Source: a virus. Taken from it: a DNA stretch of 21,377 nucleotides. The position numbers were made by a program, and so were the translations under genes. Where the stretch lies: the IMG/VR virus record IMGVR_UViG_3300022602_000482, positions 1-21,377 of that record, one strand, 5' to 3'. Under the pieces are notes generated by a model. That model worked only from the letters and a program-made list of their open reading frames with translations. It did not search any database and was not told the origin of the DNA. Below are positions 1,780 through 14,771 of the stretch, one piece after another (positions within the stretch are counted from its first letter, which is position 1; each line of letters starts with the position of its first letter).

Positions 1780-1797
1780 GTTGTTCCCTTGCTTTCA

Positions 1798-2106: not shown

Positions 2107-2114
2107 TTTTGTCC

Positions 2115-3080: not shown

Positions 3081-3183
3081 ACACCCCCAGTATAAATAAC
3101 ACATAGCAAAATACAGCGGTTGTCCACACAGCACCAAGACCGAGCACGGCGATGAGCATTAGTATTTCAAATACGTCATTCAT
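3067..3183 (-). CDS. Small single-span membrane protein (38 residues)
   Basis: ATG at 3183 opens a frame ending at 3067. It begins MNDVFEILMLIAVLGLG, continues with a hydrophobic stretch to about residue 33 (AVWTTAVFCYVLFILGV) and ends YDDQ. The hydrophobic run of about 28 residues is long enough for one membrane span or a tight hairpin. The start forms an ATGA overlap with the stop of the upstream gene (3180-3183), the junction style used all along this operon, and the end overlaps the next gene by 14 nt. Tiny inner-membrane proteins are frequent in phage early regions; no function can be given. Confidence 0.72.
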   Translation of the reverse strand: MNDVFEILMLIAVLGLGAVWTTAVFCYVLFILGVYDDQ

Positions 3184-3365
3184 GTTTCATCCTTTGTGTA
3201 TAGTATTTTATTAATCCATTCTTCTGTTGGTTGTACATACTCGCGTATAAACTCATTGGATAAAACTTTGTACATCATGGTCGAGCCAAGATGTCTACCT
3301 TCCGTGTCTCTCAAATCATTTGCAGCTATGAGTAATTGTTCTATTGAATCAGGGTGTATGTTCAT
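3180..3365 (-). CDS. Hypothetical protein (61 residues)
   Basis: The chosen start, MNIHPDSIEQLLIAANDLRD, forms an ATGA overlap with the previous stop and has AAGGA about 9 nt upstream. The open frame extends to 3395 without support. The protein looks fully helical and soluble, with EYVQPTEEWINKILY near its end. No family is recognised. It is followed, again by an ATGA overlap, by the 38-residue membrane protein. Confidence 0.72.
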   Translation of the reverse strand: MNIHPDSIEQLLIAANDLRDTEGRHLGSTMMYKVLSNEFIREYVQPTEEWINKILYTKDET

Positions 3366-3562
3366 GTATTTTTTTCCTTCCTGACCTCTTTCCACTCGCC
3401 GCCCTCAACTGGTTGCCAACCATGCGTCTCGGTCAGAACTTCGTTTTGATGCCACTGCTCAAGCACGGATATGGTTTGGTTTTGGCTGTCGTAGGAATCG
3501 TAGTAATAATATTTTTTATCTATCCATCTGAGTTGTGGTGTTGGTGATTGTCTTCTATTCAT
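3362..3562 (-). CDS. Hypothetical protein (66 residues)
   Basis: The sequence starts MNRRQSPTPQLRWIDKKYYY and is rich in tyrosine, tryptophan and glutamine (YYYYDSYDSQNQTISVLEQW, then HGWQPVEGGEWKEV). The alternation suggests a small beta-rich fold. The pattern LRW...K...LEQW.....GWQPVE resembles small proteins met in phage early regions, but I cannot name it. Its last codons (RKEKNT) overlap the Shine-Dalgarno of the next gene, and the start overlaps the previous stop by ATGA. Confidence 0.72.
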   Translation of the reverse strand: MNRRQSPTPQLRWIDKKYYYYDSYDSQNQTISVLEQWHQNEVLTETHGWQPVEGGEWKEVRKEKNT

Positions 3563-3732
3563 TTGTTTTCCTTAAAAAATTCGTTAAAAACTTTTGCACA
3601 TATTTCATCTCGCTTATCTTGCCAATATTTTTTATTTGCAATGTCTTCCTCTTCAGTCACAGGAATCAAATTACCATCCGCATCTTGTTTATGCCACCAA
3701 GGTTTACCGTCTTTATTTCCCAGAAACCACAT
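3559..3732 (-). CDS. Hypothetical tryptophan-rich small protein (57 residues)
   Basis: ATG at 3732 opens MWFLGNKDGKPWWHKQDADG and continues with NLIPVTEEEDIANKKYWQDK and a charged helical end (KVFNEFFKENK). It lies between two genes with the same strand and junction style. Its stop overlaps the next start as ATGA, and its start lies 20 nt inside the end of the upstream gene. AAAGGAG lies 7 nt before the ATG. Two antisense frames across this stretch are shadows. Function unknown. Confidence 0.7.
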   Translation of the reverse strand: MWFLGNKDGKPWWHKQDADGNLIPVTEEEDIANKKYWQDKRDEICAKVFNEFFKENK

Positions 3733-3931
3733 GATTTTTCTCCTTTAATTTAGCTTCTATTGCAAAGTAAACATCGGTTATTTGAAAACTGTTCCACGTC
3801 CTCATGCTGTCACTAATGGCATTTAATTCATCAGCGGTCAAACCTACCCATTCACGTTTTCCATCCGCAGGTTTTTGTTTCTTTTCAAACAAAGCAGAAA
3901 ACGCTGTTGGTGATGTTGGGTGTTCGCTCAT
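3713..3931 (-). CDS. EWVGLT-module small protein (72 residues)
   Basis: A variable N-terminus (MSEHPTSPTAFSALFEKKQK) is followed by REWVGLTADELNAISDS and ends in a helix FAIEAKLKEKN. The EWVGLT...IEAKLKEKN unit is a widespread module of small phage proteins. It occurs again in the gene at 4062-4325, so the two are paralogous in this part. The start at 3931 overlaps the stop of the small membrane protein gene in the ATGA style. The encoded helix AKLKEKN coincides with the Shine-Dalgarno AAAGGAG of the next gene. No role is known. Confidence 0.78.
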   Translation of the reverse strand: MSEHPTSPTAFSALFEKKQKPADGKREWVGLTADELNAISDSMRTWNSFQITDVYFAIEAKLKEKNHVVSGK

Positions 3932-4065
3932 GCGTTCTTTTCCTTTAATTTATTTTTTCTTTCTTTGCTAATAAAATGCGTGGTCAAAATAAAACCAAGC
4001 AAAACTCCATCGGCAATGCTTAACCCAATGATTAAAAAAATTTGTCCGTATGTAAATGTAATCAT
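3928..4065 (-). CDS. Small single-span membrane protein with basic tail (45 residues)
   Basis: ATG at 4065 opens MITFTYGQIFLIIGLSIADG, continues VLLGFILTTHFI and ends with the strongly basic tail SKERKNKLKEKNA. A hydrophobic span of about 24 residues followed by a lysine-rich tail predicts an N-out, C-in inner membrane protein. Both ends form ATGA overlaps (with the genes at 4062 and 3931). The tail KLKEKNA is almost the same as the end of the upstream gene, KLKDKNA, at DNA level too, so the junction sequence itself may have been duplicated. Function unknown. Confidence 0.75.
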   Translation of the reverse strand: MITFTYGQIFLIIGLSIADGVLLGFILTTHFISKERKNKLKEKNA

Positions 4066-4325
4066 GCGTTCTTATCCTTTAATTTAGCTTCTATTATTCG
4101 GGAAATGACATATAACTCATCAGCACTGCAATCTAATTCCACGGGCGATTCCATACAAGCCTCCCAAATTTCCTCACCCGTCAACCCTACCCATTCTTTA
4201 GAATGAGTATAGAGAGGCACTCCGGCAGATCCGTCTGTAACTTCTCGCCATATGCCATCGTTAAACTTTGCAAACTTTCCCACGGGTTCTTGGCTTTCAT
4301 CTTTCAATTGTTTTTGTGTTTTCAT
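4062..4325 (-). CDS. Mosaic EPVG-LYT-EWVGLT small protein (87 residues)
   Basis: Modules in order: a short charged start, EPVGKFAKFNDGIWREV, VPLYTHSKEWVGLTGEEIWE and a closing helix VISRIIEAKLKDKNA. This is a typical phage mosaic small protein: EPVG plus PLYT, then EWVGLT plus a helical end. It shares the EWVGLT part with 3713-3931 and the EPVG/LYT part with 4508-5113. Such modules recombine between phages but have no assigned activity. The start overlaps the previous stop by 4 nt. Confidence 0.8.
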   Translation of the reverse strand: MKTQKQLKDESQEPVGKFAKFNDGIWREVTDGSAGVPLYTHSKEWVGLTGEEIWEACMESPVELDCSADELYVISRIIEAKLKDKNA

Positions 4326-4504
4326 TCTTGTTTCCTTTTTCTTTTATCAATATAACCGCACCAACATTTTTGGTTGGGCATGAGAATCTTTGGTTGAGCT
4401 TTTGGTAAACGAACGGTACATTCAGGGCATGGCATACCTAAAAGTTGTTTTCGTTCTTTTTTGTAGGCATCATAGTCTCGCCACAATTCAGCCATATCAC
4501 CCAT
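4322..4504 (-). CDS. Small zinc-ribbon protein (60 residues)
   Basis: The N-terminal helix MGDMAELWRDYDAYKKERK is followed by GMPCPECTVRLPKAQPKIL and NQKCWCGYIDKRKRK. The CPEC and CWC clusters form a likely four-cysteine zinc ribbon, and the ends are basic. Short phage proteins with the order helix, G(I/M)PCPxC, RPKA, ILxPxQxC are common and uncharacterised. AAGGAG lies 6 nt before ATG 4504. The C-terminal KRKQE is encoded by the Shine-Dalgarno of the next gene. Confidence 0.8.
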   Translation of the reverse strand: MGDMAELWRDYDAYKKERKQLLGMPCPECTVRLPKAQPKILMPNQKCWCGYIDKRKRKQE

Positions 4505-4507
4505 ATC

Positions 4508-5113
4508 TCACTCCTTAATTCCGTGAGCAGATTCAATTGCTCTGGCAATTCGCATTGATGTTGAACCGTCTCGTCTGATTGCACTCCCATGTGATACCTC
4601 TCGAACAATGTCTGCAATCCGCTCATCCGTCAGAGGCTTGCGGTATTGTGGTTTAGTATAAAGAAGGGTTCCTTCTGGTGGAGGTTCGCCAAACCATCCG
4701 TGTATCAATGAGCCATCCCAACTCATTACACTACCTACGGGTTCGCCCCGCTCTTGCTTTGGAAACGCTCGTGCACCACCTCCACAAATTGGACAATCAA
4801 TTTCTTGCCATCCAAGTCTTGCTAACTGCTCACTTTGATCTTGCTTTAGTGCTTCTTCTAAGGCTTTAATTGCACTTTGAGCTTTATCTGCCCAGTCACC
4901 ATCAACTATTTCATCGTGCCAATTACATCCTCCAAAAACTTCAAGTGCTTGTTTTATTGCTTCTTTAGTCATACAGCTTTCACTACTTTTTGGTTGTTCT
5001 TGAATAACTTTGTAATGCGCTACTAAGCATCCTTCAATACCATCAGGACAAGGTATCCTTTCTGCTTTTTTACCACCTACTATATTATTCCAATTCATTT
5101 CTTCTTTACTCAT
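4508..5113 (-). CDS. Mosaic phage protein with MTKEAIKQAL helix, CPICGG zinc motif and EPVG-LYT-PLTDE modules (201 residues)
   Basis: The protein seems assembled from modules: an N-terminal cysteine-containing stretch (RIPCPDGIEGCLVAHYK), a helical MTKEAIKQALEVF...AIKALEEAL segment, a DCPICGGGARAF zinc motif, then EPVGSVMSWDGSLIHGWFG, GTLLYTKPQYRKPLTDERIA and a C-terminal helix ending IARAIESAHGIKE. The EPVG/LYT/PLTDE order is a common phage mosaic. The frame is open three codons further (to a TTG at 5119), but ATG 5113 has AAGGA 6 nt upstream and overlaps the previous stop, so it is preferred. No enzymatic motif is visible. Confidence 0.8.
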   Translation of the reverse strand: MSKEEMNWNNIVGGKKAERIPCPDGIEGCLVAHYKVIQEQPKSSESCMTKEAIKQALEVFGGCNWHDEIVDGDWADKAQSAIKALEEALKQDQSEQLARLGWQEIDCPICGGGARAFPKQERGEPVGSVMSWDGSLIHGWFGEPPPEGTLLYTKPQYRKPLTDERIADIVREVSHGSAIRRDGSTSMRIARAIESAHGIKE

Positions 5114-5414
5114 TCTCAATCCTTTCTACTTTTTGTCTGGTGCATCCTTTACCGCAAGACTCCGAGTAATTACGCTCAGTTACTGTATGGTTACCGCACC
5201 TAGTAACGTAATGCTTGTTCTCAAATATCCATATATCACAGTCTTCAAACTTATAGGCAAGCCTTGGTTTGTTGAACTCCGCTTGTTGCTCGGGTGTCGG
5301 GCCAAATATTGAGTAAAGCGCCAAAATTATTGACCCTATTACCGTACCAAACACAATAACCATGAGCGTTGCCCCGCCAATAGGTAATATAATGTCGTCC
5401 CAAATTTTATTCAT
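5106..5414 (-). CDS. Membrane-anchored cysteine-rich phage protein (102 residues)
   Basis: Residues about 9-38 (ILPIGGATLMVIVFGTVIGS and onward) form a hydrophobic membrane span. The rest (YKFEDCDIWIFENKHYVTRC, GNHTVTERNYSESCGKGC) has four cysteines in a pattern CD.W.F......VTRC......SCGKGC. This pattern is seen in many small phage envelope proteins, usually lipoproteins or single-span proteins with the cysteine-rich domain in the periplasm. Here a transmembrane anchor replaces a lipobox. Pairing into two disulfides is plausible but inferred. The start overlaps the previous stop by 8 nt with GGAG 5 nt upstream. Confidence 0.78.
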   Translation of the reverse strand: MNKIWDDIILPIGGATLMVIVFGTVIGSIILALYSIFGPTPEQQAEFNKPRLAYKFEDCDIWIFENKHYVTRCGNHTVTERNYSESCGKGCTRQKVERIENE

Positions 5415-5745
5415 AATAACTCCGCGTTATTAAACCCAAAACTGCATAAAGCAGCACCGCATACAAAGTACAAAACACCACAATATCAGTCGTGATTGTT
5501 GTTTCTATACCCAGTAATGCTTTTTGCACCCAGTCTTGATCAGGGTTATAGTAGTTAACCTTCGGCTCATAGTAGATACCGATCTTTACTTTGCCTGTGT
5601 CGTATGGGACGGAACCCTTTGTCAAGCTTGACTGCCTAACAAACGCAGGATCATTTCTAAGTTTCGGTTTACTATTATTATTTCTATCCAACATAAGATC
5701 ACCATTAGCCATATTGCGAATTTCATGTCGTCTCCTTTTATTCAT
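5407..5745 (-). CDS. YDTGKVKIGI-type phage protein with C-terminal membrane span (112 residues)
   Basis: The central part, PYDTGKVKIGIYYEPKV followed by DQDWVQKALLGIE, matches a common small phage protein in which 'YDTGKV.IG..Y.P' precedes 'D.D..Q.ALLG'. The C-terminus (IVVFCTLYAVLLYAVLGLI) is a membrane span, which is less usual. The N-terminus is basic and asparagine-rich. ATG 5745 forms an ATGA overlap with the previous gene but has only a weak Shine-Dalgarno. The strong Shine-Dalgarno just inside this gene belongs to another frame (see 5622-5726), so the true N-terminus is uncertain. Function unknown. Confidence 0.75.
   Translation of the reverse strand: MNKRRRHEIRNMANGDLMLDRNNNSKPKLRNDPAFVRQSSLTKGSVPYDTGKVKIGIYYEPKVNYYNPDQDWVQKALLGIETTITTDIVVFCTLYAVLLYAVLGLITRSYYE
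5622..5726 (-). CDS. Possible overlapping hydrophobic micropeptide (34 residues)
   Basis: AAGGAG lies 5 nt before ATG 5726 and opens MKFAIWLMVILCWIEIIIVN, ending in a short basic tail (MILRLLGSQA). It lies wholly inside the preceding gene's frame. The initiation signal is far stronger than that of the host gene. The peptide looks like a signal anchor, without a clear lipobox. It may be a real overlapping gene, or the original start of the host gene separated by a frameshift in the AAT-repeat run at about 5675-5690. Tentative. Confidence 0.35.
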   Translation of the reverse strand: MKFAIWLMVILCWIEIIIVNRNLEMILRLLGSQA

Positions 5746-6236
5746 AGTGTGCCCCCAAAATATTTATGCAACTCCACATACAAAGCCTTGGCTTGTTGTA
5801 GCGATATATCTCTGAGTAATCCCTCAATGTTCCAACGTACAACGGGCACTTCATTCTTAGGCTCGGGTATTGCTACGGGTCTGCGTTTTATTTCGACAGG
5901 CTTCTTTTTCTTGCCGTTGTGCAACTTCGTGCCATGCGCTTGGGCAAATGCTTGTACGGGTATGTATTTATCTGCCTTGGCAAACAACTCGCTGCACACA
6001 GGGTCTCGCACCACCATGCCTACCTTTATGAATTGCCCGATCATGGTCTCGGTCGTGACTGTCTTGATGCCCTGCTTGTACATAGCGTCTATGACATTTT
6101 TAGATACGCATCCCTCGTTGTCTCTGATGTAGTTAAATATGATCTCGCTCTTTGACATTTTATTCTCCTGTTGTAAATCTTCTGGCTCTGTCCACTCGTT
6201 AATGGCTTTTTTTAAGGCTTCTTGTAATGTTGGCAT
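5742..6236 (-). CDS. Putative winged-helix DNA-binding protein (164 residues)
   Basis: Residues about 25-90 (SKSEIIFNYIRDNEGCVSKN, then DAMYKQGIKTVTTETMIGQF and GMVVRDP) read as helix-turn-helix with a wing: a first helix, a GC+SKNVID turn, a recognition-like helix and a short strand pair. The middle is lysine- and proline-rich, with KKKKPVEIKRRPV acting as a basic linker. The C-terminus (NIEGLLRDISLQQAKALYVE, ending YFGG) is a helical hairpin found at the end of several phage DNA-binding proteins. ATG 6236 has a perfect AAGGAGG 6 nt upstream. The longer frame to 6269 is not supported. It may regulate phage or host genes; targets are unknown. Confidence 0.68.
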   Translation of the reverse strand: MPTLQEALKKAINEWTEPEDLQQENKMSKSEIIFNYIRDNEGCVSKNVIDAMYKQGIKTVTTETMIGQFIKVGMVVRDPVCSELFAKADKYIPVQAFAQAHGTKLHNGKKKKPVEIKRRPVAIPEPKNEVPVVRWNIEGLLRDISLQQAKALYVELHKYFGGTL

Positions 6237-6237
6237 C

Positions 6238-6450
6238 TTAGTCCTCCTTATCATCGTTGTGTCTAACATTATACATATCTTGTAGGTCGGTAAACCTCGA
6301 GAGCAAACTTCTCATCAAGCCATATTTATGGTCGTTCTGTTCAAAGTTAGCGCTTACTGATACGGCAAGGCTCAATGCTTGGCATATCAGGTCTATCTCC
6401 CTGTCGTGCAATACGATAGATTTGGATACATCGGGTTTACTCTTAATCAT
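6238..6450 (-). CDS. Hypothetical helical protein (70 residues)
   Basis: The protein starts MIKSKPDVSKSIVLHDREID and is predicted to be mostly helical (LICQALSLAVSVSANFEQND, MRSLLSRFTDLQDMY). No family is recognised. ATG 6450 overlaps the end of the previous gene by 8 nt. The open frame to a TTG at 6456 adds two codons without support. The gene ends with AAGGAGGAC, which is the Shine-Dalgarno of the next gene. Confidence 0.68.
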   Translation of the reverse strand: MIKSKPDVSKSIVLHDREIDLICQALSLAVSVSANFEQNDHKYGLMRSLLSRFTDLQDMYNVRHNDDKED

Positions 6451-6724
6451 GGGCAACTTCCACGATTGGCATCTCTAACACATGGAAAAACTCGGAGTAG
6501 TCTTGTCTCATATCTCCATCATCGTCATACTTGACTGGGTACGCAGTAAAGAAAAACGTCTCGCCGTCACAGTATAAGTTGATGTCATACTCAGCGCCGT
6601 CTATCTCCACGTAGTCCCAATCATCGTGGTCGGTGTAATGCCCATCAGGGCAATGCACCATTGGGTTAAGGCTTATGCCTTTGCTTAGTAGTTTGAGTAC
6701 TATCTTTCTTTGCAGTTCGTTCAT
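6443..6724 (-). CDS. Hypothetical acidic phage protein (93 residues)
   Basis: An N-terminal helix (MNELQRKIVLKLLSKGISLN) precedes an aspartate-rich beta-like part (DHDDWDYVEIDGAEYDINLY, FFFTAYPVKYDDDGD). The strongly acidic, small beta fold recalls DNA mimics and other host-takeover proteins only in composition. That is not an assignment. ATG 6724 follows AAGGAGAAGGAC, whose codons also encode the EGEGQ tail of the upstream gene, and overlaps it by 4 nt. Confidence 0.72.
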   Translation of the reverse strand: MNELQRKIVLKLLSKGISLNPMVHCPDGHYTDHDDWDYVEIDGAEYDINLYCDGETFFFTAYPVKYDDDGDMRQDYSEFFHVLEMPIVEVAHD

Positions 6725-7008
6725 TGTCCTTCTCCTTCTGTGTATTCCTCTACCATGTGCTCGGCTATTTCGTACCAGTTAACGTCTGAGAGAAACGCTA
6801 AAGCGTATGACATGGCTAACCCGTCAGGTATTTCCGCACATTCAAAAATTACTTCTTCGGCATACTGTTTGATGCTCTTAGCCAATCCGTATGTATCTTC
6901 GGGGTCAAATTTAGAATAGTATTCGGCGGGATTAAACCCATCAAATACCTCTAGATTTACTCTCCACGTAGCGTAGTTAGTCCATCCGTTGTATGTTGTG
7001 TCTGTCAT
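6721..7008 (-). CDS. Conserved phage protein with YNGWTNYATWRVNLE signature (95 residues)
   Basis: The N-terminal YNGWTNYATWRVNLEVFDG is a highly recurrent signature of small phage proteins. The rest is helical and acidic (LAKSIKQYAEEVIFE, LSDVNWYEIAEHMVEEYT). The family is widespread but uncharacterised. Length is typical. The start is fixed by AAGGAGAAGGAC 3 nt before ATG, an unusually close spacing, and by an ATGA overlap with the previous gene. The EGEGQ tail is encoded by the next gene's Shine-Dalgarno. Confidence 0.85.
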   Translation of the reverse strand: MTDTTYNGWTNYATWRVNLEVFDGFNPAEYYSKFDPEDTYGLAKSIKQYAEEVIFECAEIPDGLAMSYALAFLSDVNWYEIAEHMVEEYTEGEGQ

Positions 7009-7139
7009 TGTCCTTCTCCTTCTTCTAGTTCACTATCATCTACCTCAAAGCGCAGTAACCTTGAGCCATCAAAGATCTCGATCAGATCGAAATCAATCCC
7101 TGCCTTATGTAAGGCGTCATACAGTTCTTGTGCAGTCAT
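7005..7139 (-). CDS. Small acidic phage protein, MTAQELYDAL type (44 residues)
   Basis: The frame begins MTAQELYDALHKAGIDFDLI and continues EIFDGSRLLRFEVDDSELEE to EGEGQ. One helix followed by two strands and an acidic tail is the usual form of this very short phage protein, which I have seen as MTAQxLYDAL...GIDF..VEIF.G.R.L. Function unknown. AAGGAG lies 7 nt before ATG 7139. The stop overlaps the next start as ATGA. Confidence 0.78.
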   Translation of the reverse strand: MTAQELYDALHKAGIDFDLIEIFDGSRLLRFEVDDSELEEGEGQ

Positions 7140-7157
7140 TTACTTTCTCCTTGGTTG

Positions 7158-7179
7158 AATGGGGGGAAATCCCCCCGTT
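7158..7179. repeat. G6-AAAT-C6 hairpin, copy 1
   Basis: A perfect 6-bp G:C stem with an AAAT loop (GGGGGGAAATCCCCCC, 7161-7176) is extended by three weaker pairs. It lies about 20 nt downstream of the peptidase gene stop, on the 3' side in leftward transcription, and before the Shine-Dalgarno of the 44-residue gene. There is no T-run on either strand, so it is not a standard intrinsic terminator. See the four other copies. Confidence 0.85.
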
Positions 7180-7199
7180 AAAAATCGTGATTGCTGAGA

Positions 7200-8330
7200 T
7201 CATGCGTACGCATACACCGAGTCGAACAAGTCAATCAGTAATGAATCGGGGTCTTCTACCCACGCACGACTAAGTGCCTCGTTCACCCACTCCTCGGTCA
7301 TGCGTGATCGGTCGATCATCTTGATTGCCATCTCTGTATCTTCGGGGTACACGGCTTCTGCCATAAGCTCTAGCAGAAAGTCAAACATACCTACCTGCGC
7401 ATCGAGTAGCGCATCTTGTACATCTTGGGCATAGTAATCAGCGTAGGTTGTAAACGACTTACTAAAGTTAAATGAGTTGTCGGTCGTCTTGTCCCAGTTG
7501 TACGCATAGGCACCGTATGCGTAGTCGTCTTGATCCCATTTACTCTCATGTATCTTAGGGTCACGACTGGTCGGCAAGGTATCCCAGTCAATAAGCAGCA
7601 CTTGCTTGGACAACTGTTCATAATGCACAAGGTCAAGCGACTCGAACTCGCTGTGCTCACGGTCGTAGCCTACGCTAATGTTTGTACACTCAGGGATGAT
7701 GCTAGTAAACTCTGCGGTATCTGTGTACACACCACTATCGTCAGGCGAGTACATCATCACATCGGTATAGCCGTCAATATTGAGAGCATTAGATAAGTCC
7801 TGCGCAAACGCATCGCTACAACACCTAGACCATCCTTGATGTGTAATGACACTATCTATGCCACGTCTATCAAACGCTATCGCACGATCAAACTCAGCAA
7901 GCAGATCGGGATAGTTCTTAGCCAGATACTTAGCACCGATACCCCCGCACTCCTCACCTTGCGTAAAGATATAGTACCCATTCACACCTTCGTGCATCAT
8001 GTGCATGAGCAAGGCAATACCCGCACCATCATCGGCGCCGAGGGGCGCACCACACGCAGACCATTTGGTTGCAGTCATGGTGATATTGTTCTTACCCTCG
8101 ACACGGTGCACCGTATCTACGTGCGACACGAATAGTGTGCGGTGTCTTGACTCGGTTCGGTAGTCCACGTGCAAGTTACCACACGCATCAATAAAGGATA
8201 TATCCCACAAGAACTCGGGTATGGCCGTTGCTAACCAGTTTGTAAAGTCAACATTGGTTTGTGATTTGTGTGGTCGCTTGAGACTGAGTGCGTACTTAAG
8301 CGTTTTGTAGAGTGTAGATTTTTTATTCAT
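7200..8330 (-). CDS. Clan MH zinc metallopeptidase (M20/M28-like), 376 residues
   Basis: A phage-encoded di-zinc exopeptidase-like enzyme. All expected ligand positions are present and in order: H70 and D72 in VSHVDTVH, the bridging aspartate in LGADDGAG (D100/D101), the general base and ligand in TQGEECGG (E126/E127), D153 in IAFDRRG and H226 in GYDREHSEFES. LGADDGAG resembles PepT-like M20 enzymes, and the late DREHS...D..HY resembles M28. The extra C-terminal 120 residues are acidic and tyrosine-rich and probably non-catalytic. No signal peptide, so cytoplasmic. ATG 8330 is chosen (AAGGA 8 nt upstream, overlapping the previous stop). Likely roles are peptide or small-amide hydrolysis during takeover, but the substrate is unknown. 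Alternative: a related aminoacylase or amidohydrolase. Confidence 0.85.
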   Translation of the reverse strand: MNKKSTLYKTLKYALSLKRPHKSQTNVDFTNWLATAIPEFLWDISFIDACGNLHVDYRTESRHRTLFVSHVDTVHRVEGKNNITMTATKWSACGAPLGADDGAGIALLMHMMHEGVNGYYIFTQGEECGGIGAKYLAKNYPDLLAEFDRAIAFDRRGIDSVITHQGWSRCCSDAFAQDLSNALNIDGYTDVMMYSPDDSGVYTDTAEFTSIIPECTNISVGYDREHSEFESLDLVHYEQLSKQVLLIDWDTLPTSRDPKIHESKWDQDDYAYGAYAYNWDKTTDNSFNFSKSFTTYADYYAQDVQDALLDAQVGMFDFLLELMAEAVYPEDTEMAIKMIDRSRMTEEWVNEALSRAWVEDPDSLLIDLFDSVYAYA

Positions 8331-9621
8331 TTGTTTCTTCCTTGGTTGTTTGTTCAGGCGCATGGTCTGTGTGGTATCTGTTGCCGTCTATCTCGACATA
8401 GTCTGTGCAGTCGTTTGTGTACCAGTTGAATGACCCCTCGCATTGCCAGCAGTTGTCTCTGAGATCGTACTCATTGGTATCCTCGGCACAGCATATGCGG
8501 TCATCGTCACATGGGTAATACTCACCCTCACTCTCAATAAATACCACATCGTCATGAGTATGGTACTCACCGTCTACATCACACACGATCTCATTGTCAT
8601 CGAGGTAGTCTGTATGGTAGTAGTCACCGCCAACGGATATGACACAGTCTTCGGGTAAGTAGTACTGGTCACCTCTGCGTGAATACGCATAGATATAGTT
8701 GTTGCTACAGCAACGTTCGCATATACCACGATCTTCGTGCATACCGACCCAGTAACCGTCATCTTGATCGTAGCCCTCACCGCAGTCCTCGCATGTGTTC
8801 TCAGACACCTCTCGTGTTAAGCCCGATGTGCTATCCATTTCGTAATCACCGTCAGGGTCAATCACAAAATACGTACCTGTTGATGTGTTCTTGAGTGCGG
8901 CACGCTTTACGTCACCGTCAAGGTACGGTGCAACCCAATCATCTCGGTGCGGTATAGCCTTGAGACGGAACCCCTCCCAGTCGCTTGCTTTTTTATAGCC
9001 CTGAGACTTAAGCCACGCCTCTAGTTGCTCATCGCTGTGTGAGTAGCCGTCATTGTTCTTGCGATAACTTCGCACGAACACCTTATCATCAGGGTCGCTA
9101 TCGTTGATCAGCGCACGCCCGACTGTGTCGTTACCCTCCTCACGCACCGCCATTGCCCAACCATGCGCAGGGTCATAGCACTCATAAGGATGTGTACTAA
9201 ACGATGTATTCACCATGCAAGACCTTGGCCCACGTTGCAAGTGATAGATCATCTCTGCGGTTGTGCGTACGATCCTGACACCGTTTACCACATGAAGCGC
9301 TTGGATGTCACGTATCTCATGGTCTGACAAGTCAGGGAAATGTCTGCGTAGATACTTGCCAATGGTTGTGATGGTCTGACGATCTGCCTCACCTGCTCGG
9401 TCGTCCTGTGTGTAGGCTATGCGAGTGGGGTCAGTCTCGGATTTGTAGGGATGCTCTAACACCAGTTGATGCCAGTCTTTGGGACGGGCTAACTCTAACG
9501 CATCCCAGATCGCAGGATGCACACGGTGTTTGTAATACTCTCTGTGAAACCAAGGGCGTGACTTGCGCAATACCTCTTGAAGTAAAAAGACCCATTGGGT
9601 GGTGATAAGTTGTCTACTCAT
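8323..9621 (-). CDS. Large conserved hypothetical protein with cysteine-rich repetitive C-terminus (432 residues)
   Basis: Three parts are visible. Residues 1-100 are helical (FLLQEVLRKSRPWFHREYYK). About 100-260 carries HLQRGPRSCMVNTSFSTHPY, GWAMAVREE and GRALINDSD, a motif set that also includes FVRSYRKNN and AWLKSQGY. From about 275 there is CEDCGEGYDQ...GICERCC, a likely zinc site, followed by short repeats around GGDYYHTDYLDD, DGEYHTHDDV, EGEYYPCDDD and DGNRYHTDHA, with further cysteine pairs. The C-terminus is very acidic. I cannot name the family. It overlaps the peptidase gene by 8 nt, so the two are co-translated and may cooperate. ATG 9621 has AAAGGAG upstream. Confidence 0.8.
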   Translation of the reverse strand: MSRQLITTQWVFLLQEVLRKSRPWFHREYYKHRVHPAIWDALELARPKDWHQLVLEHPYKSETDPTRIAYTQDDRAGEADRQTITTIGKYLRRHFPDLSDHEIRDIQALHVVNGVRIVRTTAEMIYHLQRGPRSCMVNTSFSTHPYECYDPAHGWAMAVREEGNDTVGRALINDSDPDDKVFVRSYRKNNDGYSHSDEQLEAWLKSQGYKKASDWEGFRLKAIPHRDDWVAPYLDGDVKRAALKNTSTGTYFVIDPDGDYEMDSTSGLTREVSENTCEDCGEGYDQDDGYWVGMHEDRGICERCCSNNYIYAYSRRGDQYYLPEDCVISVGGDYYHTDYLDDNEIVCDVDGEYHTHDDVVFIESEGEYYPCDDDRICCAEDTNEYDLRDNCWQCEGSFNWYTNDCTDYVEIDGNRYHTDHAPEQTTKEETNE

Positions 9622-9639
9622 TTGCTTTCTCCTTTGTTG

Positions 9640-9849
9640 TTACTCTTTCGAGCCATCGTTTTCAATCGTGATTTTTGTCTCAATGATGAAGTGGTAATCC
9701 CCTCGCTCACCGAGCATACGAGCGTCACGTTCCGCTTGTAATCTGTTGGTGTAGATACCCTCGGTGTATCTACTTGCCGTGTCTTTCTTATATCCGTACA
9801 GCATGTACACCATGACACACTCTCCTTTGTTAACGTATGTAAACTTCAT
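9640..9849 (-). CDS. Hypothetical small protein (69 residues, alternative start gives 57)
   Basis: The core is MVYMLYGYKKDTASRYTEGI followed by an amphipathic helix (RLQAERDARMLG) and a final strand pair (YHFIIETKITI). It looks like a small alpha/beta protein; family not recognised. Two start sites are equally well equipped: ATG 9849 (AAAGGAG, 7-8 nt) and the in-frame ATG 9813 (AAAGGAG, 9 nt). The 12 residues between (FTYVNKGECV) would then be either an N-terminal extension or untranslated leader. Confidence 0.7.
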   Translation of the reverse strand: MKFTYVNKGECVMVYMLYGYKKDTASRYTEGIYTNRLQAERDARMLGERGDYHFIIETKITIENDGSKE

Positions 9850-9875
9850 TTGCTTTCTCCTTTTAGTGTTTTACA

Positions 9876-10604
9876 TTAAATCGAATCGGGGGAAATCCCC
9901 CCGATCTCTAACCCATGCCATGTGTGTGGCACAGCGTCATTTGGCTTTAGCTTCTCGATGATCGTGATTGCTCGTCTCATCTGCGCTATCAACTGCGCTC
10001 GTTCCTCGGTAGGTTCGATCAGTTGCTCGGTCTCGGCGTTGCCCAGTTCCTTTTGAGTACGGACAAGCAAAGTTTGTTTTTGTTTTGTATTGGGGCGTTT
10101 GGTTCTTTGGAATGGAACTTTGCGCTTAGTCTTTGGTGCGTGTGGTATCGCCTCGAATAGCAGGGCTATCTCTGTGCGTTTGGATGTGGGTATCCAATCC
10201 GTCCAATGGTCTCCGTTGTTGGGGATGTCCGCATCTTTGGCTATGGTAGACGGGGTCATCGGCTTATCTGTCTGCTCATCTCTAAGCAACTGGAGTGCCT
10301 CAAACTTAGTCAACAGTTTCTCCATCAGTTTGATGTACGCACTAAACGCAACGTCTCGCTCGGGTTTGTGTTTGCCGTCATGCCTTGCCCCTACCTTGGC
10401 GTTGGAGAGTTCGTATTTGAGTGGTGAGATGAGACGTGACCATAACTTTCGGTGTTGTAGTCTTAGCATCTTGTCTGACCTCTGCGCTTTCTTTGCTTTG
10501 AGTATCGCTGCTTTCTTTTGTTCGAGTGCTTCGGGTTGGGCTATGCGTTTGCTTAGTCTGTTGTGCAACTCTTGCGGTTTCATTTTCACGTATGGTTTTG
10601 TCAT
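9876..10604 (-). CDS. Hypothetical basic helical protein (242 residues)
   Basis: The first 90 residues are very basic and helical (KMKPQELHNRLSKRIAQPEA, KKAAILKAKKAQRSDKMLRL). The centre is polar and the region around 155-180 is again basic (KTKRKVPFQRTKRPNTKQKQ). The C-terminal part is helical with ERAQLIAQMRRAITIIEKL. Composition suggests nucleic-acid binding, but no fold or family is recognised. AAAAGGA precedes ATG 10604. It is the first gene after the non-coding gap 10605-10999, so it may open a transcription unit. The last codons (GGISPDSI) lie in hairpin copy 2, so the hairpin is translated. Confidence 0.75.
   Translation of the reverse strand: MTKPYVKMKPQELHNRLSKRIAQPEALEQKKAAILKAKKAQRSDKMLRLQHRKLWSRLISPLKYELSNAKVGARHDGKHKPERDVAFSAYIKLMEKLLTKFEALQLLRDEQTDKPMTPSTIAKDADIPNNGDHWTDWIPTSKRTEIALLFEAIPHAPKTKRKVPFQRTKRPNTKQKQTLLVRTQKELGNAETEQLIEPTEERAQLIAQMRRAITIIEKLKPNDAVPHTWHGLEIGGISPDSI
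9883..9905. repeat. GAATC-G5-AAAT-C6 hairpin, copy 2
   Basis: An 8-bp perfect stem (ATCGGGGG with CCCCCGAT) around an AAATC loop. It overlaps the last codons of the 242-residue gene, just upstream of its stop in leftward reading. The first 20 nt, GAATC to C6, are identical to copies 4 and 5. Confidence 0.88.
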
Positions 10605-10618
10605 GATTAAAATCCTTT

Positions 10619-10798
10619 TTAGGTTATTAGTCTTTGGTGGTGTCCGAGACTACTCATTGTGCCACAACTTTGGACAGTTGGGAAGCCCCTTGAATACTGC
10701 GTTTGTGCCATTTGTGTCCGACACGTATATCGTTTTAAAAGAACACTAACGCCAAAGTAAAATAAAGAATGTCCGAACCAAATAAAGAATGAACACAT
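10619..10798 (-). CDS. Possible small open frame (59 residues), weakly supported
   Basis: ATG 10798 is preceded by AGGAGG at 10 nt, and the frame runs 59 codons to a TAA just before the next gene. The N-terminus is hydrophobic (MCSFFIWFGHSLFYFGVSVL) and the rest is polar (RYTCRTQMAQTQYSRGFPTV). The good Shine-Dalgarno supports it. The composition of the second half and its overlap with repeat-like sequence argue against it. No family is recognised. Confidence 0.3.
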   Translation of the reverse strand: MCSFFIWFGHSLFYFGVSVLLKRYTCRTQMAQTQYSRGFPTVQSCGTMSSLGHHQRLIT

Positions 10799-10942
10799 AT
10801 ATAAATACCCTCCTATATATAAATATATATTTAAATAGATAAGTAAGTAAGACAGTTTTTGAGGACACGCAATAACGGCGGGGCTTTTCGACTGTCGGAA
10901 GTTTAGTCCAGGTGCTTAATCATGGATAGGTAATTTTTGAGA

Positions 10943-10970
10943 GACTAAAAACCCTTTTTGGTGCTTAGTC
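10943..10970. other. Hairpin GACTAA...TTAGTC
   Basis: Arms GACTAA and TTAGTC (6 bp) enclose a second short pairing ACC/GGT across an internal loop. A T-run lies in the loop rather than after the stem, so terminator function is doubtful. It sits directly beside hairpin copy 3. Confidence 0.5.
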
Positions 10971-10974
10971 TTAC

Positions 10975-10996
10975 ATTGGGGGGAATCCCCCCCAAT
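10975..10996. repeat. ATT-G6-AATC-C6-AAT hairpin, copy 3
   Basis: A 9-bp perfect stem (ATTGGGGGG with CCCCCCAAT) with a 4-nt loop. It lies 3 nt downstream of the stop of the 69-residue gene in leftward reading. It has no T-run. Confidence 0.88.
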
Positions 10997-10999
10997 CTC

Positions 11000-11209
11000 C
11001 TACTCAAAGAGAGCCAGTTGCTTAGGTGCATGGGTGCACCATGCTTGATAGTCTGCCGCTGTCTCGAACACTAAGCCACGTTCCATAAGGTTGTGTTTCT
11101 TAAAGACGTAGACCATGTGCTGCTTATTGGGTGAGGGTTTGTAGTGTTGCACATGGTAGTGTGTTGAGCCAATGGTGATGATGCCTTGATATGTGATGCT
11201 GGGTTTCAT
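11000..11209 (-). CDS. Hypothetical small protein (69 residues)
   Basis: It starts MKPSITYQGIITIGSTHYHV and continues QHYKPSPNKQHMVYVFKKHN, then a helix ETAADYQAWCTHAPKQLALFE. A beta-sheet followed by a helix is likely. It is unknown to me. ATG 11209 has GAGGA 6 nt upstream, within the last codons of the preceding membrane-protein gene. The longer frame to 11260 only overlaps that gene. Followed at once by hairpin copy 3. Confidence 0.72.
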   Translation of the reverse strand: MKPSITYQGIITIGSTHYHVQHYKPSPNKQHMVYVFKKHNLMERGLVFETAADYQAWCTHAPKQLALFE

Positions 11210-11211
11210 GA

Positions 11212-11391
11212 TTAGTCCTCGAAGTGTAGGGTGAAGTAAGTAAAATAAGCGCCTGTACAAATAGCAAATACCATGAGTAGTAAGACGGCAAGGAAAGGTG
11301 CATCGGCACAGATACGATTGGCAAAATACAATGTGCCAATGGAGAGTGCAAGGATGACGAATAGGTGAGAGATGATTTCAATACGTTTCAT
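11212..11391 (-). CDS. Small two-span membrane protein (59 residues)
   Basis: ATG 11391 opens MKRIEIISHLFVILALSIGT, then LYFANRICADA, then a second hydrophobic stretch PFLAVLLLMVFAICTGAYFT and a short end FTLHFED. Two membrane spans joined by a short polar loop with one arginine and one aspartate are evident, with a basic N-terminus predicted to be cytoplasmic. The size fits a holin-like or other takeover membrane protein, but no lysis gene is nearby, so holin is not claimed. The gene is flanked by same-strand genes with gaps of 2 nt on both sides. Confidence 0.72.
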   Translation of the reverse strand: MKRIEIISHLFVILALSIGTLYFANRICADAPFLAVLLLMVFAICTGAYFTYFTLHFED

Positions 11392-11393
11392 GG

Positions 11394-11534
11394 TTAGAAC
11401 TCCTCATTAAGAATACGGATAACCTCGGCATCGTCTCGATCTTTAAGAGCTTCGCAAAGCTCGTCATTCTCAAGGGCGAGTTGAGGGTCAATGGTGCGCT
11501 CGGCACACTCGGTCATAAATTCTGTTTTAGTCAT
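11394..11534 (-). CDS. Small acidic protein (46 residues)
   Basis: ATG 11534 opens MTKTEFMTECAERTIDPQLA, followed by LENDELCEALKDRDDAEVIR and ILNEEF. It is a fully helical, very acidic peptide. AAGGGG lies 5 nt before the ATG. It sits with 2-nt gaps between the neighbouring genes, which supports a real gene. Family and role unknown; the 'ALENDEL..AL...D...V..IL..EF' layout is common in tiny phage proteins. Confidence 0.7.
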   Translation of the reverse strand: MTKTEFMTECAERTIDPQLALENDELCEALKDRDDAEVIRILNEEF

Positions 11535-11536
11535 GA

Positions 11537-11719
11537 TTACCCCTTAAAGAATAGGTTGAATTTCTGCTCGTACTCGCAACGACTTGCGAAGATTTCCACG
11601 AACATTTGCTCGGACGTACTGAGCCAAGCCGTGGGTTGCTCACCTGACATAAATAAAAGCATTGCGTAGTTTTCGAGGGTTTCGATACGCTCATCAATAT
11701 ACTGATTAAAAGATTTCAC
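11537..11719 (-). CDS. Hypothetical helical protein with GTG start (60 residues)
   Basis: GTG at 11719 is chosen: GGAG lies 6 nt upstream and the protein begins (M)KSFNQYIDERIETLENYAM, a clean helical start. The extra upstream codons to 11776 look like leader. The rest (LLFMSGEQPTAWLSTSEQMF, VEIFASRCEYEQKF) is helical. No recognised family. The gene stop is 2 nt from the next start. Confidence 0.7.
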   Translation of the reverse strand: MKSFNQYIDERIETLENYAMLLFMSGEQPTAWLSTSEQMFVEIFASRCEYEQKFNLFFKG

Positions 11720-11783
11720 GGTTATCTCCAGTTGACAGTTAAAAGAACAGCGCAGAAACCTCGTGTCCCTGCGCATCGAAAAA

Positions 11784-11808
11784 GAATCGGGGGAAATCCC
11801 CCCAATCG
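11784..11808. repeat. GAATC-G5-AAAT-C6-AATCG hairpin, copy 4
   Basis: It is identical over 25 nt to copy 5. The stem of 5 G:C pairs has two further A:T pairs beyond one mismatch. It begins directly after the stop of the 134-residue gene (11809) in leftward reading. Confidence 0.9.
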
Positions 11809-12213
11809 TTACTTAGTCTTAGATGCCCATGCTTCTTCAAATGCTTTGAGTGCCTGTTGCTTAGTCTTGAATTTGGTTACGATGCGAGCGAATGGGTTAA
11901 CTGGCTCGGTGCGGTTCGATGTCTTAGGCTTGCCTGTGTAGTAGATCTCACAATCAGTGAGTATGACCTGCACCGCATCTTTTGCCGCTTCGTAACTCTT
12001 AGCTGTGTTGTCCATGACCATGCGCCCTGTGGCTTTGCCTTTGCCGTCTTTGAGTGGTACGCCGTATTTGCCTGCGACTATGGGCATGACGAGTGCGTAG
12101 GCACTATCGTACTTTTTACCTTTGAGTGATGCCTTGAGTGCCTCAATAGCTTTGACGTATGCCTCACCAGTTGCGAGTGCGTTGAGTACGAGTGTGTTGA
12201 ATGAAATTTTCAT
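11809..12213 (-). CDS. Hypothetical protein, first gene of the leftward arm (134 residues)
   Basis: It starts MKISFNTLVLNALATGEAYV and shows helical segments (VKAIEALKASLKGKKYDSAY, TAKSYEAAKDAVQVIL) around a basic loop GVPLKDGKGKATGRM. The C-terminus (FARIVTKFKTKQQALKAFEE) is helical and basic. I do not recognise the family. AGGAGA lies 5 nt before ATG 12213. As the first gene behind the leftward promoter it would be expressed earliest, which suits a host-takeover protein. The gene is bracketed by hairpin copies 4 and 5, identical over 25 nt. Confidence 0.78.
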   Translation of the reverse strand: MKISFNTLVLNALATGEAYVKAIEALKASLKGKKYDSAYALVMPIVAGKYGVPLKDGKGKATGRMVMDNTAKSYEAAKDAVQVILTDCEIYYTGKPKTSNRTEPVNPFARIVTKFKTKQQALKAFEEAWASKTK

Positions 12214-12253: not shown

Positions 12254-12474
12254 GCTAGAGCGAATCCCTTAACCGATGCCTCTATTGTACGGATAGGGGT
12301 AAAAGAACCAATCCAATAGTAGTAAGCCTAGCCCAAATCTAAGCCAAAACGAATACTAAAATACCCACACTACCCCCATCACCCCTCTTTTAAGGATGGT
12401 CGCATGGTCACCATGAACACTGTTCCTCACCCGCTCCCACTACTTCTGTAATACTTAAGTACCGCTATTCAATT
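12254..12474. other. Leader of the leftward operon with two short palindromes
   Basis: About 220 nt with no convincing gene on either strand. Two adjoining palindromes stand out: CATGGT-C-ACCATG (12403-12415) and GAACA-C-TGTTC (12415-12425). They would lie in the transcribed leader, about 45-65 nt after the predicted start, and could be protein-binding sites or small RNA hairpins. The rest is C-rich on the plus strand with no obvious structure. Confidence 0.45.
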
Positions 12475-12504
12475 ATTATAAAAAATCCAAATACCCATTG
12501 TCTA
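12475..12504 (-). promoter_or_regulatory. Leftward sigma70-like promoter
   Basis: On the minus strand, TAGACA (12504-12499, five of six matches to TTGACA), an 18-nt spacer and a perfect TATAAT (12480-12475). A start near 12468 is expected. The next gene on this strand starts at 12213, so the leader would be about 255 nt. The -35 box lies in the palindrome at 12497-12516. Confidence 0.7.
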
Positions 12505-12516
12505 ATGTTAGACAAT
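12497..12516. promoter_or_regulatory. Palindromic operator candidate ATTGTCTAA-TG-TTAGACAAT
   Basis: Perfect 9-bp arms around a 2-nt centre form a site about two helical turns long, as bound by dimeric helix-turn-helix repressors. It covers the -35 box of the leftward promoter. A bound dimer would block RNA polymerase. No repressor gene is identified; the winged-helix protein at 5742-6236 or a host regulator are candidates. Confidence 0.65.
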
Positions 12517-12523
12517 AGCACAT

Positions 12524-12561
12524 AAAAAAACCCCCCAGGCTGATTAGTGCAGCTTTGGGGG
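12524..12561 (-). terminator. Rho-independent terminator, minus strand
   Basis: On the minus strand, CCCCCA pairs with TGGGGG and, after a small internal loop, GCTG pairs with CAGC around CACTAAT. Seven Ts follow (12530-12524). The structure is complete and oriented leftward, although the nearest genes to its right run rightward. Confidence 0.8.
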
Positions 12562-12602
12562 CTAAAAGGACCATTGAGCCAAGTCCTACAGGAGAGAGCA
12601 AA

Positions 12603-12617
12603 TGCACAACTTGCGCA
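12603..12617. promoter_or_regulatory. Imperfect palindrome TGCACAA-C-TTGCGCA at the rightward -35 box
   Basis: Seven-bp arms with one mismatch. It overlaps the -35 box TTGCGC (12611-12616) of the rightward promoter and could be an operator for it, or the first stem of the candidate RNA. Sequence differs from the leftward operator. Confidence 0.4.
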
Positions 12618-12640
12618 CTTGATCAAATGTATTATATACT
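12611..12640 (+). promoter_or_regulatory. Rightward promoter of the packaging/head operon
   Basis: TTGCGC (12611-12616), an 18-nt spacer and TATACT (12635-12640) point to a start near 12647, about 27 nt before the small terminase gene. The -10 box overlaps that of the leftward small RNA promoter. Match to consensus is moderate. Confidence 0.55.
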
Positions 12641-12660
12641 ACACCCATTCGAGGTTACAA
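12631..12660 (-). promoter_or_regulatory. Leftward promoter of the candidate small RNA
   Basis: On the minus strand, TTGTAA (12660-12655), an 18-nt spacer and a perfect TATAAT (12636-12631). The -10 box shares two base pairs with the rightward promoter's -10 box, so polymerase can occupy only one of the two at a time. Confidence 0.55.
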
Positions 12661-12673
12661 GGACCTACGCGCA

Positions 12674-13258
12674 ATGTTAGAGCATCTTATTGATTATGAA
12701 CCGGAAGTGAGTGACAACTCACACGGATTCGTGTCGCTTGAAAAAAACACCCCGTCTCAAACCGTAGACGCTAAAGTAAACACCCTTGACTGGCTCCAGC
12801 AATTAGGAGCCGTAGACACAGATACGAAGGCAGACGAGCTGGATACCCAGCACGCACGTAAAGCTTTTGCCAACATCGTATCTGCCACACCTGACGAAAT
12901 CACCCACTCATCGCTTGCCGAAGTTAAAACGCCACAGGCCGTAAGACATTTGGTCACCATGCTGACCGCTTACGACTGGGAGTTTGTCGAGCGAGCCAAA
13001 GAACTTAGAGGCTACACAGTAGCTAAAATTTTGGAAGAATGTGAGAATCCCAGCGCCAACATACGCCTGAAGGCACTTGCTTTATTGGGTAAGGTCACAG
13101 AGGTTGGACTCTTTACAGACAAGATTGAGGTTAAGAAAACCGAGCTGTCTGATGCAGAGATTGACTCCAAGATTAAAGAAAAACTCAATCGGTTCATGGG
13201 TGTGGTCGATGTCACGGATGTGGGGGATGTTCTTGAAACTCAACGACTTAACGCTTAA
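12674..13258 (+). CDS. Terminase small subunit (194 residues)
   Basis: The small terminase recognises phage DNA and brings it to the large subunit and portal. The N-terminal 60 residues are acidic and variable. The middle (VSATPDEITHSSLAEVKTPQ, AVRHLVTMLTAYDWEFVERA) is helical. The ENPSANIRLKALALLGKVTEVGLFT segment followed by KIEVKK matches small-terminase proteins that precede this type of large terminase. A DNA-binding helix-turn-helix is not obvious. AAGGA lies 10 nt before ATG 12674. It overlaps the large subunit gene by 32 nt, which supports the pairing. First gene of the rightward operon. Family recognition rests on the C-terminal pattern and the context. Confidence 0.85.
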   Translation: MLEHLIDYEPEVSDNSHGFVSLEKNTPSQTVDAKVNTLDWLQQLGAVDTDTKADELDTQHARKAFANIVSATPDEITHSSLAEVKTPQAVRHLVTMLTAYDWEFVERAKELRGYTVAKILEECENPSANIRLKALALLGKVTEVGLFTDKIEVKKTELSDAEIDSKIKEKLNRFMGVVDVTDVGDVLETQRLNA

Positions 13259-14771
13259 TCCTCAAGAAATCCAGGCGCTACAAGCCGCCCTTCCCCGTAT
13301 GAGTACGGCGGAGAAGATTGAACTTATGGACATGCTGGAGGTCAGAGAGCAAAGATTTAAGATAGCCACCGCCCAAAATAGTGTGCTCGAGTTTGCCAAA
13401 CGGGTCTATCCTGGTTTTAAAGTAGGTCCCCATCATAGAAAACTGGCATCTATATTTGAAGCGGTGCTAAGCGGTGAGAAAAAACGAGTCATTATCAATA
13501 TTGCGCCCCGTATGGGCAAGTCTGAGTTCTCATCCTACCTATTCCCCGCCTATTTTTTAGGTAAATTCCCCGAGAAAAAGATCATCATGGGCACCCATAC
13601 AGCGGGTTTGTCTGAAGATTTTGGTAGGCGCGTGCGAAATTTAATCAATTCGGAGGAATACCATGAGCTATTTTCCAACACTGAGGTCTCAGACGACCAA
13701 AAAGCTGCAGGCAAGTGGTCTACTTCAAGAGGTGGACAGTATTATGCGGCGGGTGTCGGGGGTGCACTTGCGGGACGCGGAGCGGATTTGTTCGTTATCG
13801 ACGACCCCCACTCAGAGCAAGATGTCAAAGCAAATAGCAGACTGGCGTTTGATAATGCTTGGTCGTGGATGCAGACCGGACCGCTCCAACGTTTGATGCC
13901 GGGGGGCGCGATCATTGTAATTATGACGCGTTGGGGACTCCTTGATCTGACCGGACGCTTGATTGACTACCAGATTAAGAATCCAGACTCCCCTAGATGG
14001 GAGATTGTGGAGTTGCCTGCAATACTGAACGAGGGCACGGAGAACGAGAAGTCGTTATGGCCTGAGCAGTGGCCTCTTGAGGCGCTAAAGTCTGCAAAAG
14101 CCTCTATTGATCCAAGGTATTGGAACGCGCAGTACATGCAGCAGCCTACGAGTGACACATCTGCGATCATATCAAGAAAGAGTTGGCGCATGTGGACAGC
14201 GGACACACCGCCTCCTTGCGAGTATGTGATTCAGTCTTGGGATACGGCGTTTGAGACAAAGAACAATTCTGACTACTCAGCATGCACAACGTGGGGTGTT
14301 TTCTACAACGAAGAGGAAAACAACAAGCCGCAATTGATATTACTGGACGCGTTCAAGGATAGAATGGCGTTTCCTGAACTCAAGGTAATTGCGCTCAAAC
14401 ATTACAAAGAATGGGAACCAGACGCGTTTATCGTGGAGAAAAAAGCCGCAGGTGCTCCACTGATTCAAGAGTTACGGGCAATGGGAATACCTGTGCAAGA
14501 AACAAATCCGAGCAGAGGCAATGATAAGATGGTCAGGTTAAACGCCGTCTCTGATCTGTTCGCAAGCGGAATGGTATGGGCACCAGAGACACGCTGGGCC
14601 AGAGAGGTGATTGAAGAAGTTGCGTCATTCCCAGTTGGGGACAACGATGACTATGTGGATACAACGTCCCAAGCGCTGATGCGTTTTAGACAAGGGGGGT
14701 TCATTGCGTTAGATTCAGACGAGCGTGATGACATGAGAACTTTTAGGCGCAAAACCGCCGCATATTATTAA
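13227..14771 (+). CDS. terL: Terminase large subunit (514 residues)
   Basis: The DNA-packaging motor: an ATPase domain plus a nuclease domain. Walker A is NIAPRMGKSE (residues 91-100) in the terminase-specific form without GxxxxGK. Walker B is ADLFVIDDP (186-194), and the coupling motif is VIMTRW (231-236). The nuclease has IQSWDTAF (D339), FIVEKKAAG (E404) and NDDYVDTTSQ (about 473-481), the three acidic RNase H-like positions. All are intact. The frame is open back to 13077, but ATG 13227 gives the usual N-terminus (LTLNPQEIQALQAALPRMST). The Shine-Dalgarno there is poor, so translation may be coupled to the small subunit. The type alone does not tell headful from cos packaging. Confidence 0.95.
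   Translation: MFLKLNDLTLNPQEIQALQAALPRMSTAEKIELMDMLEVREQRFKIATAQNSVLEFAKRVYPGFKVGPHHRKLASIFEAVLSGEKKRVIINIAPRMGKSEFSSYLFPAYFLGKFPEKKIIMGTHTAGLSEDFGRRVRNLINSEEYHELFSNTEVSDDQKAAGKWSTSRGGQYYAAGVGGALAGRGADLFVIDDPHSEQDVKANSRLAFDNAWSWMQTGPLQRLMPGGAIIVIMTRWGLLDLTGRLIDYQIKNPDSPRWEIVELPAILNEGTENEKSLWPEQWPLEALKSAKASIDPRYWNAQYMQQPTSDTSAIISRKSWRMWTADTPPPCEYVIQSWDTAFETKNNSDYSACTTWGVFYNEEENNKPQLILLDAFKDRMAFPELKVIALKHYKEWEPDAFIVEKKAAGAPLIQELRAMGIPVQETNPSRGNDKMVRLNAVSDLFASGMVWAPETRWAREVIEEVASFPVGDNDDYVDTTSQALMRFRQGGFIALDSDERDDMRTFRRKTAAYY

Follow-up and report, generated by a model that had tools for sequence, protein, structure and literature searches.

In a tailed-phage genome fragment, positions 12624-12524 of the minus strand very probably constitute a conserved gene for a real small RNA (sRNA). 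The DNA analysed, called the window throughout, is the complete stretch of 21,377 nucleotides of virus record IMGVR_UViG_3300022602_000482 (G000). The overall model which we favor, with moderately good confidence, is that of a trans-acting sRNA with an anti-Shine-Dalgarno (anti-SD) segment, which would be transcribed divergently from the late promoter and would block translation of early mRNAs. Comparison of related phages showed that promoter, core and terminator of the unit, as well as its structure and strand, are conserved, and that early and late genes differ in their ribosome binding sites (RBSs). A first-pass annotation of the window had proposed an undescribed phage sRNA at this place; this reading is supported by the conserved unit and by the absence of any Rfam match, whether the gathering score or permissive filters were applied. 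The bidirectional promoter, the conserved anti-SD segment and the occurrence of the unit at another site in a second phage group go beyond that annotation.

Genomic Context and Parts of the sRNA Unit

The genes at positions 1-12213 of the window are all oriented leftward, the nearest of them starting at 12213, and the rightward late genes follow in the order TerS, TerL, portal and capsid. TerS (12674-13258, plus strand), assigned by position and conservation, heads the rightward late operon, which a promoter region shared with the sRNA would drive; TerL (13077-14771, plus strand) comes after it. Early and late arms were assigned from gene content. As described before, no minus-strand gene ends at 12524-12624, and the genes to the right run rightward, from TerS at 12674 onward.

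Read on the minus strand, the unit starts with a promoter at 12660-12631, composed of a -35 box TTGTAA (12655-12660), an 18-nt spacer and a -10 box TATAAT (12631-12636). The predicted transcript of about 100 nt (12524-12624), its start placed from the promoter and its end from the T tract, comprises on the same strand hairpin 1 of the GCAA...UUGC type at the 5' end (12596-12624), a single-stranded anti-SD core UCUCCUGU (12588-12595), hairpin 2 with variable, covarying sequence (12567-12587) and a GC-rich intrinsic terminator (12524-12563). The terminator consists of a two-part stem (12563-12529) and a T7 tract (12530-12524); because of the interrupted stem it was missed by a simple terminator scan. 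Promoter, both stem-loops and the complete leftward terminator had been recognized by the first-pass annotation, and all were recovered here. A promoter-like sequence was also found past the terminator, where the leftward operon had been thought to start from its own promoter. The U-rich linker and the poly-U tail of the predicted sRNA are compatible with Hfq dependence, no more.

The minus strand of the unit folds with a minimum free energy (MFE) of -36.8 kcal/mol (z -2.6), compared to z -1.2 for the plus strand. Five promoter-like sites were counted in 3.5 kb where 4.6 were expected, so that the window promoter alone is not above chance. As the fold is also only mildly unusual, the case rests on comparison.

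Conservation Behind a Bidirectional Promoter

Relatives were collected via TerL, yielding 80 viral contigs with identities from 94% to about 72%, and 66 distinct regions upstream of TerS, window included, were aligned. The layout of promoter, hairpin 1, unpaired UCUCCU core, hairpin 2 and terminator was kept in 61 of these 66 loci, each time on the strand opposite to TerS. The core reads UCUCCU in 60 of the 61 loci and UCUCUU in the remaining one, its columns in alignment A1 being invariant. A terminator stem with T5-9 was present in all 61, giving the unit its own Rho-independent terminator on the sRNA strand. Promoter, stems and terminator were thus kept in close and distant relatives, the outcome by which the first-pass annotation had wanted its proposal checked. 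A covariance model (R2) gave one strong match per phage; the match in the window covers 12524-12603 on the minus strand (E 1.6e-6).

Five of the 66 loci (L021, L040, L053, L058, L075) have another intergenic region without a covariance-model match, which argues that the unit is dispensable in some lineages. In L021, L040, L053 and L058, with TerL about 75-77% identical and no sRNA, GC-rich repeats of the CCGGCGCAGCCGGCCAT type were seen upstream of TerS instead. Nine relatives (L062, L054, L034, L045, L076, L022, L042, L072, L081) carry short palindromic insertions, TTTTGGCC(T/A)(T/C)(T/C)GGCCAA(A), in the hairpin-1 region between -10 box and core, at differing positions.

The sRNA promoter was of the type TTG-17/18-TAYACT in 61/61 loci, with a spacing of 17 nt in 56 and of 18 nt in 5. 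The TTG of the -35 box is fixed in all of them, while the three bases following it vary freely, and in most relatives the -10 box lies within the palindrome AGTGTACACT. The same -10 region serves a rightward late/terminase promoter predicted from its sequence, TTGCGC-18-TATACT (12611-12640, plus strand), which was present in 58/61 loci. As both -35 boxes are kept, the sRNA unit sits behind a conserved bidirectional promoter. Judged by these sequences, the unit has a promoter of its own, as required of an independent trans-encoded sRNA gene.

The carriers are uncultured, mostly freshwater phages. Nucleotide searches of isolated phages, near and distant, and a protein search with TerS gave no match. 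Among bacterial genome contigs only three distant TerL relatives were found (57, 47, and 66% identity), all from metagenome-assembled genomes and yielding no usable host; the covariance model was run on two of these (L338, L340) and had no match there.

Structure and Strand of the RNA

Hairpin 2 provides the main structural evidence. At its position a hairpin folds in 110/110 distinct units although the sequences differ completely. Chimeras joining the left half of one hairpin 2 to the right half of another reached -3.0 kcal/mol, compared to a native mean of -6.9 kcal/mol (z about -20; 90 distinct segments, alignment-free). Two-sided compensatory changes were observed at 5/5 model pairs, with up to six pair types. 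The covariation score was reached by 0/500 shuffles and collapsed when the partner was slid by one column. As the covariance-model alignment was fitted to the structure, the alignment-free chimera test is the independent one. RNAalifold on a plain MAFFT alignment recovered the terminator only; hairpin 2 slips in sequence alignments, and for this reason chimera tests and a structure-given covariance model were used in its place. By these comparative measures hairpin 2 is a real RNA structure, with compensatory changes among relatives.

For hairpin 1 the mean MFE was -14.1, versus -6.6 for shuffles and -9.2 for chimeras (40 distinct relatives). In the predicted folds of the 61 loci, the UUGC preceding the core was 88% paired and the core 93% unpaired (mean unpaired probability 0.93), so that (C/U)UCUCCU would be presented between two hairpins. 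G-U pairs outnumbered A-C combinations 57 to 20 (terminator 15 to 2), and due to this excess the RNA was assigned to the minus strand.

A Second Phage Group Carries the Unit at Another Site

An exact-pattern scan of viral contigs led mostly to the TerS locus again and to few contigs without it. Following the neighboring DUF927 gene gave 80 further contigs. This second group is related to the first, with TerL about 44-50% identical. Its equivalent unit, located where the early arm ends, consists of a promoter, a UCUCC(U) core and a terminator. TCTCC or CTCCT was present in 58 of 61 distinct predicted second-group transcripts, versus 12 +/- 3 in shuffles. The model of the first group matched 6 of the 7 second-group genomes searched (E 1e-4 to 3e-9), always right after the DUF927 gene. 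These copies face a convergent gene and have no operon behind them. Three other non-terminase matches of the pattern scan (L096, L113, L131) look like chance and were discarded.

The Conserved Core and the Ribosome Binding Sites of Early and Late Genes

UCUCCU is the only strictly conserved unpaired part of the sRNA, and it is complementary to Shine-Dalgarno (SD) sequences. For this reason, base pairing with mRNAs is favored among the roles suggested by the first-pass annotation, and those of a sponge or decoy are set behind it. The sRNA probably acts by anti-SD pairing, as far as can be judged from the comparison of sequences. Weak covariance-model matches elsewhere in the genomes turned out to be phage RBSs read in antisense, for instance AGGAGAAGCAAATG; in four genomes it was the AGGAGAAGCAAATG-type RBS of a conserved 149-aa early gene which was matched in this way. 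Candidate targets in the window are the RBSs AGGAGAAAGCAA at 9622-9633 and 9850-9861 (both minus strand), belonging to the early-arm genes 8323-9621 and 9640-9849, each with a predicted duplex of -14.1 kcal/mol.

The RBSs of both arms were compared in nine first-group genomes using simple gene calls. In the first seven genomes AGGAGA was found at 62/283 early-arm genes (22%) versus 14/255 late-arm genes (5.5%), a raw count inflated by orthologs, so that ortholog groups were counted instead. On this basis, a purine, able to pair with the core, follows GGAG in 84/97 early versus 12/35 late ortholog groups of the nine genomes (p = 1.4e-8). In the second group the difference was weaker (57/84 early versus 14/35 late ortholog groups, p 0.007). 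Only positions facing the seed show the bias, namely +1 followed by +2 and +3, and none was seen from -3 to -1 or from +4 to +6; for second-group phages, significance was limited to +1. Inside coding regions the base after AGGAG did not differ between the arms. An example of an early site is AGGAGAAAGCAAATG, and of late ones the AAGGAGU... type; there are exceptions on both sides, GGAGA being absent from some early genes and present in a few late ones. The usual early-arm base after GGAG is A. Given the 16S 3' end (CCUCC), an A at this place adds no strength to ribosome binding, and SD strength alone can therefore not explain the bias.

Four isolated distant relatives without a significant model match gave purine counts of 25/30 versus 34/47 (p 0.41, not ortholog-corrected), a weak control since their hosts and layouts differ; one of them (LC04) leans toward the same early/late difference. 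G004 and G007, from lineages without the unit, have too few GGAG genes for this comparison. An extra seed base (CUCUCUCCU) in G003, G006 and the window makes pairing with AGGAGAAGCAA imperfect, and a simple test for co-variation of seed and target fails in some lineages (UUGCUCUCUCCU seeds, AGGAGAAGCAA targets).

Proposed Role and Alternative Explanations

In the proposed mechanism, RNA polymerase would start at the promoter which overlaps the rightward late promoter in the -10 region. It would read leftward through hairpin 1, the single-stranded (C/U)UCUCCU and hairpin 2, and would stop at the unit's own terminator before reaching the leftward early promoter. The exposed segment would then pair in vivo with SD regions of the form (A)GGAGA(A)(G) and block ribosome binding. 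Its main targets would be the leftward early-arm phage mRNAs, and late mRNAs would escape, since the base after their SD is usually U or C, or since the SD fails in some other way to match the seed. Regarding the direction of regulation, we give about an even chance to silencing of early-arm mRNAs as the main role. As to timing, firing of the late promoter would co-produce the RNA which silences the early genes. More tentatively, and with somewhat less than even confidence, we envisage a translational early-to-late switch, in which one symmetric promoter sends the late mRNA rightward and the anti-SD RNA leftward, and in which the base after GGAG acts as a code (A/G silenced, U/C immune).

If this is true, RNA contributes to the early-to-late transition in a large lineage of uncultured, mostly freshwater phages: a single short RNA is directed against the SDs of their own early mRNAs, and the base after GGAG gives late genes immunity. 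Most members of the two related phage groups would then share an undescribed sRNA family, which would also be a natural case of divergent transcription being exploited. The simple RBS code would be testable with a laboratory reporter, no phage needed.

Host mRNAs might be the main targets of a real anti-SD sRNA, which would then shut off translation in the host, either generally or selectively. Any strong SD would be a pairing partner for a UCUCCU seed. The promoters resemble host sigma-70 promoters, so that synthesis of the sRNA could begin as soon as the phage infects, and some phage sRNAs already known, lambda PreS among them, have host mRNAs as their targets (PMC12197685). This reading does not predict, however, that it is precisely at the seed positions that the RBSs of late phage genes avoid pairing. 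Late genes may have evolved an escape from a general SD blocker, which fits host and phage targets alike; on balance we consider mainly host targets unlikely. The first-pass annotation had already offered as its alternative that the terminator simply stops stray leftward transcription before it enters the early genes. Taken further, a symmetric late promoter would be the source of this leakage, the terminator would serve only to shield the early operon from it, and the short RNA would be functionless. Divergent transcription is expected from symmetric promoters with a palindromic -10 box. Such a box is found in most relatives, and the terminator lies directly before the leftward promoter. Insulation leaves unexplained the covariation of hairpin 2, the invariant unpaired core and the invariant TTG of the leftward -35 box, and the equivalent unit of the second group stands at a site without an early operon behind it, so that we regard this explanation as improbable.

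In the window family the order promoter, hairpins, terminator and operon would also suit an attenuated leader of the leftward operon, with an antitermination factor providing read-through, comparable to the lambda 6S leader with Q or to HK022 put. Against this, the leftward operon has its own promoter-like sequence past the terminator, and the hairpin sequences are too variable for a sequence-specific factor. The second-group unit ends the early arm, faces a convergent gene and has no operon to control; attenuation is therefore not a general explanation, and we consider it very improbable. The least plausible of the readings, to which we attach hardly any weight, places the function on the plus strand, either as RBS and start codon of a mini-ORF (AGGAGA..AAATG) or, for the palindromes, as a DNA site (cos, pac or origin). 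In many relatives the motif indeed resembles a phage RBS with ATG, and it adjoins TerS; but the ATG is not conserved whereas TTGCTTCTCCT is, the plus-strand promoter lies downstream of the motif, and T tract and G-U bias place the RNA on the minus strand.

Comparison With Known Regulatory RNAs

The lambda 6S late leader and HK022 put are promoter-proximal structured RNAs which end at or act on a terminator. The phage sRNA described here is likewise promoter-proximal and structured, with a terminator; these two are operon leaders, whereas the second-group copy has no operon behind it. The closest known kind is found in alpha-proteobacteria: in the alpha-r14 sRNAs of rhizobia the stems vary, while an unpaired anti-SD motif is ultraconserved (PMC10746234). 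Alpha-r14/NfeR1 RNAs are short and trans-acting, only their anti-SD motif is ultraconserved, and they silence at the translation initiation region (PMC10746234). They present three CCUCCUCCC hairpin loops, in contrast to the one UCUCCU core between two hairpins, and lacking the three CCUCCUCCC hairpins the phage sRNA does not belong to this family. It is moreover phage-encoded, shares a divergent promoter with a structural operon and has no Rfam match. By analogy, it would work like alpha-r14 and form a separate, phage-borne family.

No phage sRNA with an anti-SD seed was found in the open-licence literature, where absence is no proof of novelty; a 2025 review of phage sRNAs mentions SD pairing once, for a host sRNA (PMC12197685). 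Lambda PreS, VP882 VpdS and phi24B_1 are phage-encoded as well and act, or are thought to act, by RNA pairing (PMC12197685). These RNAs of temperate phages are directed mainly at host RNAs. In the present case, sequence evidence suggests that the phages' own early mRNAs are the targets, and conservation of the unit extends across two broad groups of uncultured phages. Short phage RNAs which control the expression of phage genes are also known from P22 (sar), P1/P7 (c4) and lambda (OOP); in the case of sar, translation of a phage mRNA is blocked at initiation (PMC12197685). Each of them pairs with one specific phage transcript, unlike the sRNA described here, which has a generic anti-SD seed and no overlapping target.

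Further Observations on the Phage Genomes

A palindromic operator-like site TGTCTAACATTAGACA (12499-12514, no strand given) lies at the leftward promoter past the terminator, as a neighbor outside the sRNA. A second copy with one mismatch is located inside the early arm at 6260-6275, and relatives have a related site (AACGTTAGACAAA) ahead of their 149-aa early gene. Together these sites suggest a phage repressor regulon. A second intergenic block at 12364-12470 of the window is strongly conserved in sequence across the family (minus-strand sense GGTGNGGAAYAGTGTTCA ... TGRTGGGGGTAKGGTGGGGTC). Some lineages only (L014, L031, L007, L010, L012, L013, L064, and, with another sequence, L073) have a hairpin of the CTGTGT...ACACAG type in the 5' leader of the late mRNA, between shared promoter and TerS. 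Finally, an early-type RBS (AAAGGAGAAGCC...ATG) precedes the small gene that follows portal, despite the location of this gene in the late arm, in the window at 17283 and in L014, L010, L031, L076, and L080 at about 10.1-10.3 kb.
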